Shown in pieces: positions 5,903 through 61,797 of a stretch of DNA of 64,000 bases. The position numbers were made by a program, and so were the translations under genes. Within the stretch, counting starts at the first letter, position 1. Each line of letters begins with the position of its first letter. Origin of the DNA: Erythrobacter sanguineus (GTDB taxonomy: Bacteria; Pseudomonadota; Alphaproteobacteria; Sphingomonadales; Sphingomonadaceae); the NCBI RefSeq assembly GCF_900143235.1, contig NZ_FRDF01000015.1, positions 1-64,000 of the forward strand. Direction: 5' to 3'. The notes under the pieces are model-generated. The model saw nothing but the letters and a program-made list of their open reading frames with translations, did not search any database and was not told where the DNA came from.

Positions 5903-6655
5903 TCACAACGTCTGGCCATCATCCAGCACGAAATCCGTGCCCGTCACGAACTCCGACGCGTCGGAACACAGGAACAGGATCATCGCGTCCAGCCCCTCCT
6001 CGCCCATCAGCCGTCGCTTGGGAAAGCGGGCGATCTGTTTCCTGCCGGGTTCGGTATCGAACCACGCATCATTGATTGCGGTGCGGATATAGCCGGGAGA
6101 GATAGTGTTGACGCAGATTCCGGCCCGCGCCCATTCCCGCGCCAGGGTGCGCCCCGCCTGCACCACGCCCGCCTTGGACGCGGCATAGGCGACGAGGCCG
6201 GGGGAAGGTTCGAAGGCGGTGATCGAGGCGATCATCACGATCCGTCCCCCGGTCACCCCATGCGCCATCATCCGCTTTGCGCCCTCACGCGCGGTCAGGA
6301 TCGCGCCCTTGAGGTTGATGGCGAGGGTCTGTTCGATCTCGCCTTCGGAGATCGAGGTTGCCATGCCAGCACCGTCCACGCCCGCATTCGCAATCACCGT
6401 GTCGACCGGGCCAAAGGCCGCCTCTGCCGCGTCGAACCCGGCGATGATATCCGCCTCACGCGCGACATCCATGCCGATCGCGGCGGCATTTGGCCCGATT
6501 GCGCCTGCCAGCGCCTCCAGCCGGTCCTTGCGCCGCGCGCCAAGCGCGACCTGCGCGCCGCTGGCCGCGAGAATCCGTCCAAAGCGCGTGCCGAGGCCGG
6601 ATGATGCACCGGTGATGAGCGCGGTGCGCCCCGTCAGTTCAAAGGAAAAGCCCAT
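5903..6655 (-). CDS. SDR-family oxidoreductase
   Basis: A 250-residue classical SDR, full length. Visible elements are TGASSGLG (NAD(P) turn), NAG in VIANAGVDG, and the catalytic set Ser in IASITA, Tyr and Lys in YAASK. It ends with the usual FVLDDGQTL. It starts six bases after the stop of the Rieske oxygenase, so the two are co-transcribed; a dihydrodiol or alcohol dehydrogenase acting on the oxygenase product is the natural inference. The substrate is not determinable. Confidence 0.88.
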   Translation of the reverse strand: MGFSFELTGRTALITGASSGLGTRFGRILAASGAQVALGARRKDRLEALAGAIGPNAAAIGMDVAREADIIAGFDAAEAAFGPVDTVIANAGVDGAGMATSISEGEIEQTLAINLKGAILTAREGAKRMMAHGVTGGRIVMIASITAFEPSPGLVAYAASKAGVVQAGRTLAREWARAGICVNTISPGYIRTAINDAWFDTEPGRKQIARFPKRRLMGEEGLDAMILFLCSDASEFVTGTDFVLDDGQTL

Positions 6656-14547: not shown

Positions 14548-15438
14548 ATGCCCACCATCACCACCTCCAATACCGGGATCGAAATCTTCTACGAGGACCA
14601 CGGAGACCCCTCGAACGAGGTGATCCTGCTGGTGATGGGCCTTGGCGCGCAGCTGACCTTGTGGCCGGATGAACTGGTAGAAGCGCTGGTGAGCGAAGGC
14701 TACCGCGTGATCCGCTATGATAACCGCGACATCGGCCTGTCCCAGAAGATGGAAGGCGCGCGCGCGCCCGGCCTTGCGATGCAGGTGCTGCGCAAGAAGA
14801 TCGGGTTTCCGGCCCGCGTGCCCTATACCCTTGCCGACATGGCGCATGACGGGATCGGCCTGCTGGACGCGCTGGAGATCAAGGCGGCGCATGTCGTGGG
14901 CGCATCGATGGGCGGAATGATCGCGCAGCTGATGGCGGTGCATCACGGCCCACGCTTGCTCAGCCTCACCTCGATCATGTCGACCACCGGGAATGGCAAA
15001 TTGCCGCAGGCCGAAAAGCACGCGATGGACGCGCTGATCGCGCCGCTCAAAAGCATGGACGAGGAGGCGCTGGTTGCCCACGGGCTCAACGTCGCGCGCA
15101 ATATTGGCAGCCCCGGCTTTCCCTTCGATCCTCACCAGCAGCGCGAAAAGGTGCTGCGCAATGTCCGCCGCAGTGTCTATCCGCCGGGCCTTCCGCGACA
15201 GCTCGCCGCGATCATCGACGATGGCTGCCGCCGTTCACGCCTCGCCGATGTGCGCGTGCCGAGCCTCGTGCTGCATGGCGAGGATGATCCGCTGGTCAAG
15301 CTTGAGGCGGGCGAAGACACTGCGCGGGCGATCCCGGGCGCACGGCTGGTGACGATCCCCGGCTGGGGCCATGACATCCCGCCCGAACTGATCGGGCAGG
15401 TCGCAGGCGAGATCGTGACCCACGCGCGCGGCAGATAA
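14548..15438 (+). CDS. Alpha/beta-fold hydrolase
   Basis: A 296-residue single-domain hydrolase. The nucleophile elbow is GASMGG (Ser around residue 117), the acid is in HGEDDPL and the catalytic His in GWGHD near the C-terminus. The early LLVMGLGAQLTLWP forms the oxyanion region. It resembles esterase/3-oxoadipate-enol-lactonase-like proteins; the substrate is unknown. ATG 14548 has GAGAGG upstream, better than the far upstream in-frame codon that lies inside the previous gene. Confidence 0.88.
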   Translation: MPTITTSNTGIEIFYEDHGDPSNEVILLVMGLGAQLTLWPDELVEALVSEGYRVIRYDNRDIGLSQKMEGARAPGLAMQVLRKKIGFPARVPYTLADMAHDGIGLLDALEIKAAHVVGASMGGMIAQLMAVHHGPRLLSLTSIMSTTGNGKLPQAEKHAMDALIAPLKSMDEEALVAHGLNVARNIGSPGFPFDPHQQREKVLRNVRRSVYPPGLPRQLAAIIDDGCRRSRLADVRVPSLVLHGEDDPLVKLEAGEDTARAIPGARLVTIPGWGHDIPPELIGQVAGEIVTHARGR

Positions 15439-15473: not shown

Positions 15474-16694
15474 TTACCCCCGATAGGCGCGGCGCAGGAC
15501 ATCAAGCGCCTGCCCGACCACCTGATCATCGCCGAGGTTCGCCAGCGCAAGCGCGGCCGAGCCTCCGTTGAATGCCGCCAGAACGGGTGCGCCCAGATAG
15601 GGGTGCAGATTGAGCCACAGGTTGAACTGACCGCGCGGCAAGCCCGTTTCCGGGGTGTAGATCCAGGTTGCGTCGTCCCAGAAGACAGCATCAAATCGAA
15701 GATAGAGCTTGTCGAGGACACCCATTCCCGAACGCCCGATGGCAGCGAGTTTGCCGGCTGGCAATGGCGGGTCGAAACCAATGGCCCCTGCCTTCAGCAC
15801 GCCCAGGGGAACGGTAAGGATGACGGCATCGAAGGCCCGAAGGCCTTGCCCTTCGACGTCAAGCGCAACGCCTGCCGCCATGATCCTGACGCGGCTGACC
15901 GCACTGGAAAGCGCGACATCGTAATCGCCTTCCAGCGTTTTCAGGAGTGCCGAATAGCCGCTGGCAAAGGCCACATCACCCCCGCCATAGCCATCATTGC
16001 CTTCAAGGGCATCGGCATCGACAAGATCCGGGTCTGCCCCGAAAGCGGTCTGCGCTTCGACCTCTTCGAACAGCCAATCGGGTTGGGCCATCGCCCTCAC
16101 CTTGCGGCCCTGGCCATCGCGCACCACGTGGCTGTCAGACATCCCGAAGCGCTTGAGGCCGATCGCGTCTGCCAGTTCGCCAAGGGGGTTCCCGTCGACC
16201 CCATGAATCCAGCTGGCGCCAAGATCGAGCGGAACGCCCAGAGCATGCGAAGTCCGGATGCGCCCTCCAATCCGGTCGCGCGCTTCGAAAATTGTCACTG
16301 TGCGGCCCGCTTTCGCCAGCGCCTGCGCGGCAGCCAGTCCGCTGATGCCTGCGCCGATAATGGCAATCCGTTCATGGGAGGTCCGGCCCACCGCCTTCGC
16401 CACGATCACGCCGGATTCATAGGCCGCATGAACGGTGCTGCCATAATCGGGATGGCAGGCCTCGCCAGCAAAGAACACTGCTTCGGCGATCGGCTCTGCG
16501 AGGGAAAGCCTGTCGCCCGCTTTGGCAGTCTTCGCCGCATAGGAATATGATCCCAGCGAGAGCGGATCCTTGCTCCAGTTGGTCCGCAAGTACCCGGCGA
16601 GAGGCTGTCCGATCCCGGCATGGTGTCGCAAGGCCGGGCTGCCGATTGCAAGATGTGCCGAGATTGCGGCCAGCAATGTTCTCCGATCCATCAT
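15474..16694 (-). CDS. Flavin amine oxidase with circularly permuted domain order
   Basis: A 406-residue protein of the monoamine/polyamine oxidase family. The usual C-terminal segment is found first: GYLRTNWSKDPLSLGSYSY (34-52), then FFAGEAC (74-80) and STVHAAYESG (86-95). The FAD-binding N-terminal segment follows: IAIIGAGISGLAAA (110-123), FEARDRIGGR (136-145) and GASWIHG. The protein ends at LDVLRRAYRG, exactly where the usual chain would run on into the GYLRTNW segment. A hydrophobic leader MMDRRTLLAAISAHLAIGS precedes the moved piece. The frame is open without interruption. Normal members oxidise amines with FAD; whether the permuted form folds is unknown. It is convergent with the hydrolase. 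Confidence 0.85.
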   Translation of the reverse strand: MMDRRTLLAAISAHLAIGSPALRHHAGIGQPLAGYLRTNWSKDPLSLGSYSYAAKTAKAGDRLSLAEPIAEAVFFAGEACHPDYGSTVHAAYESGVIVAKAVGRTSHERIAIIGAGISGLAAAQALAKAGRTVTIFEARDRIGGRIRTSHALGVPLDLGASWIHGVDGNPLGELADAIGLKRFGMSDSHVVRDGQGRKVRAMAQPDWLFEEVEAQTAFGADPDLVDADALEGNDGYGGGDVAFASGYSALLKTLEGDYDVALSSAVSRVRIMAAGVALDVEGQGLRAFDAVILTVPLGVLKAGAIGFDPPLPAGKLAAIGRSGMGVLDKLYLRFDAVFWDDATWIYTPETGLPRGQFNLWLNLHPYLGAPVLAAFNGGSAALALANLGDDQVVGQALDVLRRAYRG

Positions 16695-16815: not shown

Positions 16816-17283
16816 ATGACGTTTTTCAGGCCTTTGCTTGTCCTTGTAGCAACCTTCGCGCTGACGGGGTGCGTTCATGCCCGACAAGCCGATTGCCCGT
16901 CTCGGGACGATGCCCGGGCCGAGATCGAGCGGGCCATTCATGATTTCTTCGATGCGCTTCGCAAGGAAGATCAGGGGGCCTTCCAGCGGCTCGTCACCGG
17001 GTCATTCTACGCGTTTGACGTTGGCAAACGCTTCGATGGGCCAGAGCTTTTCGATGTCATCAAGGACGCTCACGCACAGGGTGTGCAGATCAATTGGTCG
17101 CTGGGCGCGATCGATACAGAACTGCAATGCGACGTGGCGTGGTCGGCTTGGGAGAATGTCGGCAGTGTGGGCATCCCGCCCGATCTGGAACCGGTTCGCT
17201 GGCTCGAATCCGCTGTCCTGATTCGCGAGAACGGGGACTGGAAGATCGACTTCTTTCATTCCCAGCGCGCAGCCGAGAACTAG
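16816..17283 (+). CDS. Putative lipoprotein with an NTF2-like (SnoaL/DUF4440-type) domain
   Basis: A 155-residue protein. The leader MTFFRPLLVLVATFALTGCVHA contains a lipobox LTGC, so Cys18 or 19 is probably lipidated and the protein sits in the periplasm on a membrane. The remainder (EIERAIHDFFDALRKEDQGAF, then beta strands ending GDWKIDFFHSQR) is a typical NTF2-like fold. Function unknown. It starts about 120 bases from the divergent amine oxidase gene and is convergent with glpX. Confidence 0.72.
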   Translation: MTFFRPLLVLVATFALTGCVHARQADCPSRDDARAEIERAIHDFFDALRKEDQGAFQRLVTGSFYAFDVGKRFDGPELFDVIKDAHAQGVQINWSLGAIDTELQCDVAWSAWENVGSVGIPPDLEPVRWLESAVLIRENGDWKIDFFHSQRAAEN

Positions 17284-19143: not shown

Positions 19144-19395
19144 GTGATCGCTCGCCATGCTGCTTGCGGCATGGCGCCTTCCTGTCGGCGCTGGACCATC
19201 ACTGTCGAAGCGTTTCCCCTCCTGCTGGCAGGACCCGATGCGGAGCGGGTGGCGCGCGGGCGGCTGCAGCACGAAAATGAAAATGAAAATGAAAATGAAA
19301 ATGGCATGACGCCGCTGAAACCCGAGCAACGCGCCCGGATCGAAGCGGAACTGGGCCCGCCCGAAACTCGGCAGGCCGATCCCGGCGACGGGTAG
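19144..19395 (+). CDS. Doubtful small ORF containing an Asn-Glu repeat
   Basis: An open frame of 83 codons with a GTG start that lies inside a hairpin and has no ribosome-binding site. The middle encodes five Glu-Asn pairs from a GAAAAT repeat. The part after it, MTPLKPEQRARIEAELGPP, has natural protein composition and might be translated alone from the ATG at 19306 (29 residues). It ends six bases from the convergent hom stop. It could equally be non-coding. Confidence 0.3.
   Translation: MIARHAACGMAPSCRRWTITVEAFPLLLAGPDAERVARGRLQHENENENENENGMTPLKPEQRARIEAELGPPETRQADPGDG
19153..19176. terminator. Hairpin after the secreted-protein gene
   Basis: CGCCATGC and GCATGGCG form a perfect eight-base stem with an eight-base loop, 34 bases after the stop at 19119. 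There is no T run after it, so termination, if any, would be factor-dependent or the stem may only stabilise the mRNA end. Confidence 0.35.
19273..19302. repeat. Hexanucleotide tandem repeat (GAAAAT)5
   Basis: Five perfect copies of GAAAAT in an otherwise high-GC region. The unit length is a multiple of three, so copy-number change would not shift a reading frame. It is AT-rich and strikingly unlike its surroundings. Confidence 0.9.
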
Positions 19396-61291: not shown

Positions 61292-61313
61292 CCCCTTCCC
61301 TTGAGGGAAGGGG
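61292..61313. terminator. Hairpin between convergent genes
   Basis: CCCCTTCCC and GGGAAGGGG form a perfect nine-base stem with a TTGA loop immediately after the SnoaL-like stop and 12 bases before the stop of the convergent gene. It may terminate both directions; no long T tract is present. The GAGGGAAGGGG form is also a common sphingomonad extragenic palindrome. Confidence 0.55.
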
Positions 61314-61324
61314 AGAAGCAGCGA

Positions 61325-61678
61325 TTATTCCTCCGCAGGGTCCATGTAATCGCGGTAATAGGTCATCTTCCCGCCTTCGACCTTGTAGATGCCGACCCCG
61401 CCACGAGGTGCGTGGCCTTCCATGTGCATCGTCCAGCGCGCCCATGCGGCATGGGTATCACCGCAGATTTCATCGACGGTAAAGTGCACTTTGCGGCTGT
61501 CCATTTCCTCGACCATTGTGGTCATGAAGCCAAGGATCGCCTCGCGCCCTTCGTACCGGCCCCAGATCGGGTCTTCGAGCAGCGCGTCCTCGGCGAACAG
61601 ATCGACCAGCCGGGTGTAGTCGCCATCATCCTGAATGCGCCAGAATTCCTCGATCACGCGCTGTGCTTCGCCTGTCAT
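61325..61678 (-). CDS. SnoaL-like (NTF2-fold) protein
   Basis: A 117-residue protein: AQRVIEEFWRIQDDGDYTRL, LFAEDALLEDPIWGRYEGRE, EEMDSRKVHFTVDEICGD and VEGGKMTYYRDYMDPAEE. This matches the SnoaL_2 polyketide-cyclase-like group. GGAGGCGAGACA precedes the ATG. It is divergent from the CMD-family gene pair. Confidence 0.84.
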   Translation of the reverse strand: MTGEAQRVIEEFWRIQDDGDYTRLVDLFAEDALLEDPIWGRYEGREAILGFMTTMVEEMDSRKVHFTVDEICGDTHAAWARWTMHMEGHAPRGGVGIYKVEGGKMTYYRDYMDPAEE

Positions 61679-61797
61679 TGTCTCGCCTCCCTGTGCTGCC
61701 GGCAATGTGCCATGACATCGCCCCAAGCCCCCCTGTGAAAAAGGCGAGGGCGGGCGCGCGGGCGGGCCTGTTATCCTGTCTCCCAAGGAGAAAGCCC

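Follow-up and report, generated by a model that had tools for sequence, protein, structure and literature searches.

MAO, PAO and LSD1 belong to the most thoroughly studied flavoenzymes. Known members of the Pfam family PF01593, namely LSD1/KDM1A, KDM1B, spermine oxidase and maize polyamine oxidase, contain the same pieces, FAD motifs and lysine as the protein analyzed here, but the order of the pieces differs. In the linear order of the superfamily the Rossmann piece comes first and the piece with the GE and TVH motifs comes last, whereas this order is reversed in our protein, which was therefore classed as a permuted branch of PF01593 and not as an ordinary member. NicA2, Pnao and related Tat-exported oxidases combine the flavin amine oxidase (FAO) fold with a Tat leader, as would be the case here; however, a cytochrome c gene lies alongside the genes of NicA2 and Pnao, and the permuted genes are without one (PMC12224317, available part). 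The words 'circular' and 'permut' were absent from the available text of that paper.

Circular permutation has been described for other folds. Rearrangements of the same kind are known for saposin/swaposin and for DNA methyltransferases, and amine oxidases are not named in the available part of that source (PMC3320104). For the flavin-reductase split barrel, again another fold, a relation to the ferredoxin-reductase flavin domain by probable permutation has been described (cited in the accessible part of PMC13327496); an amine oxidase is likewise not named in that part. A further paper, PMC11757225, contained none of the words FAD, flavin and oxidase in a word search. The original prediction knew of no described permuted member of the amine oxidase family, and indeed no permuted flavin or amine oxidase was found among the matches listed in the open-licence PMC literature, of which titles and abstract openings were covered. 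Thus, circular permutation is known and the enzyme family is known, but their combination appears to be undescribed. Such proteins are easily overlooked, because linear profile models break them into pieces. A natural permuted clade would show at which loop the fold tolerates an opening, and the design of permuted amine oxidases could be based on it as a natural template.

The window, the whole analyzed stretch of 64,000 nucleotides from Erythrobacter sanguineus, contains a gene whose product is very probably a natural case of this kind, a member of the MAO/PAO/LSD1 superfamily with a circularly permuted flavin amine oxidase fold; we infer its fold, export, chemistry and origin from the sequence. 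The reading frame had no internal stops, and the MMDRR motif at its start allows initiation at 16694 or at 16691. The features of the gene are compiled in Table 1.

Table 1. Features of the putative permuted amine oxidase gene, in window coordinates and in the order of the protein.
Feature	Position	Strand	Basis
Whole gene, circularly permuted flavin amine oxidase	15474..16694	minus	open frame, 406 aa + stop
Leader, residues 1-27, twin-arginine (MMDRRTLLAA), Tat-like	16614..16694	minus	RR columns kept in at least 90% of a 20-row alignment
Moved piece (tail), residues 28-104, C-terminal FAD-binding part (TxWxxDP, FAGE, TVHA)	16383..16613	minus	profile 346-421, i-E 1e-25
Joint of the two old termini (C to N), residues 105-108	16371..16382	minus	gap between two profile matches
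Rossmann head, residues 109-201 (GAGISG, EARDRIGGR, GASWIHG)	16092..16370	minus	profile 2-96, i-E 4.5e-38
Site without substrate-domain profile positions 97-149, residues 202-209	16068..16091	minus	profile comparison
Body, residues 210-404, conserved lysine K329 (15708-15710)	15483..16067	minus	profile 150-342, i-E 2.6e-52

The order of the pieces was determined with a reference profile of 424 positions, which was derived from 79 of 82 standard-order relatives. This profile matched the window protein in three significant pieces in the order tail, head, body, while two standard-order proteins, themselves rows of the profile, each gave a match in one piece. The Pfam model Amino_oxidase (PF01593) reached 211.5 bits, compared to a cut-off of 19.8, likewise in three stretches, and it also matched 20 of 20 rows of the relatives' alignment with E values of 0.01 or better. 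For the NCBIfam collection, none of the best 25 of 82 models reached its cut-off with the window protein. When the reference profile was doubled, tail and head were united in one match (profile 346-520, 215.5 bits) and the body formed a second match, the path of which ran from 153 to 766. With the core rotated to start at residue 104, the top-scoring single match improved from 166.4 to 255.8 bits. For rotated starts up to residue 209 the score stayed at about 256-257 bits, because the profile breaks at the missing part of the substrate domain.

These results confirmed the order that had been read from the motifs, with GYLRTNWSKDP, FFAGEAC and TVHAAYESG preceding GAGISGLAAA and RIGGR in one open frame. 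A profile alignment that placed residues 34-100 outside the C-terminal FAD-binding region had been named as grounds for rejection; the profile placed them inside this region. It had also been claimed that the end of the protein coincides exactly with the usual start of the moved segment, and the positions confirm this: the body ends at profile position 342, the tail starts at position 346, and the joint comprises four residues. The old ends are joined, there is one internal cut and no large part has been lost at the cut, which are the marks of a natural permutant.

A comparison with solved structures gave a similar picture. In the LSD1 chain 5lgn_A, residues 108-188 of the window protein aligned to 109-189, residues 235-402 to 393-567, and residues 37-99 to 582-656, whereby the last alignment, that of the tail piece, is weak when taken alone (i-E 0.18). 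LSD1 and KDM1B were the best solved chains among the matches listed. A tail-first solved structure was not found among the 60 of 103 matches that were listed, and the best stretch began at profile position 103 or later.

Next, relatives were collected. A scan of species genomes yielded 119 confirmed places, and 80 loci were kept. The tail preceded the head in 22 of these loci (L006-L024, L033, L072 and L076) and followed it in the other 58. After identical proteins had been merged, all loci collected comprised 41 distinct permuted frames, 104 standard frames and one partial frame. In the family of the window's host, permuted genes were present in 4 of 298 genomes (G000, G023, G108 and G169), and one of these, G108, contained two permuted copies side by side (L086, 1498-2757 and 2794-3984, both on the minus strand). 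The respective numbers were at least 3 of 385 genomes for the class, with the order examined for the best 30 matches, and 5 of 398 genomes for the phylum at an E value of 1e-60. In the phylum of the actinomycetote G680, 9 of 396 genomes had permuted genes, G680 included. For the phylum of a Verrucomicrobia MAG the only one of 240 genomes was the MAG itself; one further match there covered residues 107-405. No match was found in the six other genomes of the same genus that were listed, and the nearest relative of the window protein came from an uncultured Erythrobacter. The distribution of the permuted genes is thus patchy. In the tree, L007 (Verrucomicrobia) and L018 (Acidimicrobiales) grouped among Alphaproteobacterial sequences, and these two may represent transfers or binning errors.

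The search for orthologues with the same order, which had been proposed as a check, was therefore successful in many independent assemblies. An artefact of assembly or annotation, or a decaying gene, would be conceivable, since some of the genes are on short contigs from metagenomes, the end of L018 is broken and a contig end truncates L076. However, the same order occurred in isolate genomes, e.g. of Shimia abyssi (L008) and Nioella, and dN/dS values of 0.13-0.32 speak against a decaying gene. An assembly artefact confined to this locus, the other outcome that had been named as a refutation, was rejected, as the order recurred in 22 of 80 loci and 41 distinct frames, and the chance that any such explanation holds is negligible. 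Dozens of relatives with the same rearrangement mark it as a real natural variant and not a sequencing error. One candidate from a model organism, a plasmid gene of Synechocystis PCC 6803, was rejected as a permuted member, because it has the standard order. This gene, on pSYSM (L130, 2860-4197), is one frame, and its counterpart on a plasmid of Synechocystis sp. B12 (L131, 1860-2773) is a standard-order amine oxidase in pieces, annotated as two CDS.

The position of the cut was nearly invariant. In 38 of the 41 permuted frames the body ended at profile positions 339-343, i.e. within the same five positions. The three exceptions were L076, which reaches a contig end, L018, whose end is broken, and L022, which runs into a tRNA-Arg gene. 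The match of L022 (4899-6518, plus strand) continued to position 370, and it had been considered as a remnant of a duplication; this was rejected, as the frame enters the tRNA-Arg gene at 6216-6289. The joint was short in all 41 frames, with lengths of 2-11 residues.

The glutathione reductase type of FAD fold has its last helix starting at the FAD pyrophosphate and returning to the base of strand one, and a few residues could therefore bridge the old ends. The short joint would close the old C- and N-termini, and the usual FAD site would form. The sequence fits equally well to a domain-swapped obligate dimer, in which the N-terminal piece would complete the FAD site of the other chain, and a swapped N-terminal helix is known from the flavoprotein BorF (PMC13327496, accessible part). 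However, a longer hinge is usually wanted for a swap, whereas joints of only 2-11 residues look like an intramolecular bridge between neighbouring ends. We thus regard the dimer as quite improbable and prefer the simple permuted monomer.

The sequences of the permuted proteins are in accordance with a functional FAD site, as had been suggested for a permuted chain. GxGxxG, the ribose Glu, RxGGR, the Trp and Asp of TxWxxD, and GE were kept in all 41 permuted frames. The active-site lysine, K329 in the window protein and presumably of the LSD1 Lys661 type, was present in 37 of 41 permuted and 99 of 104 standard frames; in the alignment, the other four permuted frames had Thr (two), Ala (one) or a gap (one) at this position. 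The substrate-side aromatic position that we take to be the counterpart of LSD1 Tyr761 was variable, with Tyr in 15 and Phe in 5 of 41 permuted frames, and Tyr in 28 and Phe in 11 of 104 standard frames. This variability indicates that the substrate side is not fixed, which also holds for the standard proteins. The dN/dS ratios, calculated by a simple Nei-Gojobori method, were 0.129-0.317 in seven of seven pairs, and the ratios of four pairs are rough because their dS exceeded 1. Taken together, the permuted sequences look constrained.

All listed solved relatives and the 104 frames have the standard order, and thus the permuted order is most likely derived from it. For the construction of trees the proteins were rotated to standard order, so that the order of the pieces was not a character of the tree. 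The later tree covered 39 of the 41 permuted frames and 70 of the 104 with standard order; one earlier tree was built without 12 loci and L100, which has its tail in another frame, and another without 5 of 109 rows. In the unconstrained quick trees the permuted proteins did not form one group; two order changes were needed in the two earlier trees and four in the later tree, as would be expected if the order had arisen more than once at a favoured breakpoint, for example in an Alphaproteobacterial line and in Actinomycetota. However, when all permuted proteins were held in one clade, the likelihood was higher by 14.93 in an earlier tree and by 26.73 in the later tree (p-AU 0.791), and the cut point was the same in 38 of 41 frames. 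We therefore consider multiple origins unlikely, and a single origin is favoured as the better reading of the sequences. Under a single origin, the permuted order would have been born once and would then have spread patchily.

The route of the permutation may be traced via standard-order relatives and tandem pairs of standard genes. Permutation by duplication is the standard model for circular permutants (PMC3320104, available part). Two head-to-tail pairs of standard-order amine oxidase genes were found on the plus strand (L106, 604-3039, in G557, and L108, 172-2661, in G633). In both pairs, the end of gene 1 brings its tail immediately in front of the head of gene 2; a match to the permuted profile extends across this boundary, with two stop codons inside. 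Both are distant, having only 27-29 per cent identity to the body of the window protein; they show that such raw material exists, and ancestry is not implied. A frame with two tails, i.e. an intermediate of the type tail-head-body-tail, was not found among the frames collected. The original prediction had proposed a tandem duplication followed by loss of both outer parts. This is plausible, but a two-tail frame was not observed and the leader needs an extra step. In this scheme, a standard gene would have been duplicated head to tail, the tail of copy 1 would have been fused to the head of copy 2, the outer parts would have been lost, and the leader would have been placed at the front by an additional fusion to the tail.

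A second change concerned the substrate domain, of which the window protein lacks profile positions 97-149. From the alignment column of its residue 185 to that of its residue 240, the window protein comprises 56 residues. The same interval contained 53-63 residues in 24 of 41 permuted proteins and 77-107 in the other 17, compared to 88-141 residues in the 104 standard proteins. The 24 short proteins comprised 23 from the Alphaproteobacterial branch and L141, which argues that this part was lost after the permutation. Thus, the loss probably came second, and the Alphaproteobacterial branch would have undergone a later shortening of the substrate domain by about 40 residues. The top standard-order match of the class search, L096 (G634, Alphaproteobacteria; 330.7 bits), also has a twin-arginine leader, but it differs from the window protein by its standard order and its full-length substrate domain, and it was not the sister group in the tree.

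Most permuted members had a twin-arginine leader by reading, and many of those from Actinomycetota had a lipobox-like cysteine. In 38 of 41 frames an RR pair occurred no more than 75 residues upstream, and 35 of 41 showed a Tat-like pattern, whereby these upstream stretches include untranslated codons. A clear Tat leader was not recognized by reading in at least five permuted members (the second copy of L086, L088, L129, L136 and L137). Such a leader does not distinguish the permuted clade, since RR was present upstream of 82 of 104 standard frames. FAD would be taken up in the cytoplasm, and the leader would then direct the protein to export through the Tat pathway.

An amine would be oxidized by hydride transfer to FAD, as judged from the family, and the reduced FAD would then be reoxidized, most likely by O2. 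Among the 40 loci, two contained frames with a CxxCH motif, at a distance of more than 3 kb from the gene in both cases, and many flanks were 1.5 kb or shorter; in the window, the sole CxxCH frame was at 61292-61735. Thus, a neighbouring cytochrome c gene, which would point to a dehydrogenase, was not found within 3 kb in the 40 loci or in the window. Tat-bearing FAOs without a neighbouring cytochrome c gene mostly reacted fast with O2, with the exception of the enzyme from Erythrobacter sp. 1414, which was slow (PMC12224317, available part). The twin-arginine leader, the lack of a nearby cytochrome c gene and the speed of the tested relatives with O2 together lead to the reading that an exported O2-using amine oxidase is most likely encoded. 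The main rival is an exported dehydrogenase of the NicA2/Pnao kind, which would pass its electrons to a cytochrome c encoded elsewhere. The Tat-like leader would fit this as well, and so would the slow enzyme of Erythrobacter sp. 1414, given that the nearest relative of the window protein is from an uncultured Erythrobacter. As the missing CxxCH frames and most of the tested enzymes speak against it, we regard the dehydrogenase as possible, though the less probable of the two, and retain the O2-using oxidase.

The permutation itself might be useful, such that in an undescribed clade of one origin, kept across Alphaproteobacteria and Actinomycetota, the order of the pieces checks FAD loading before Tat export. 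The GE/TVH piece, which is tied to the leader, could not take its position until the Rossmann half and FAD had been placed. If this were true, only FAD-loaded enzyme would leave through the Tat pore. At present we find such a function doubtful.

The amine oxidase gene seems to stand alone. An alpha/beta hydrolase gene on the plus strand ends at 15438 and is convergent with it, the divergent neighbour is a short gene at 16816-17283 (plus strand), and a TraB-family gene and glpX lie farther out. Four other matches were found in the host genome at an E value of 0.001, all of which were Rossmann stretches of at most 60 residues, and thus a close standard-order paralogue was not found there. A DNA pattern scan yielded no site besides the known one, and a scan for promoters and terminators yielded nothing of use. 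When the neighbourhoods of 21 loci and part of the window were compared, common neighbours occurred almost only between close relatives, i.e. in the three Nioella, in L019/L020, in L023/L033 and in L024/L072. The exceptions were one match between L008 and L022 and one between L020 and L021, and the remaining shared frames overlap the amine oxidase gene itself. Elsewhere in the window, at about 19272-19302, there is a tandem repeat of about five copies of AAAATG, for which the minus-strand frames give FIFIF- or FSFSF-like stretches.
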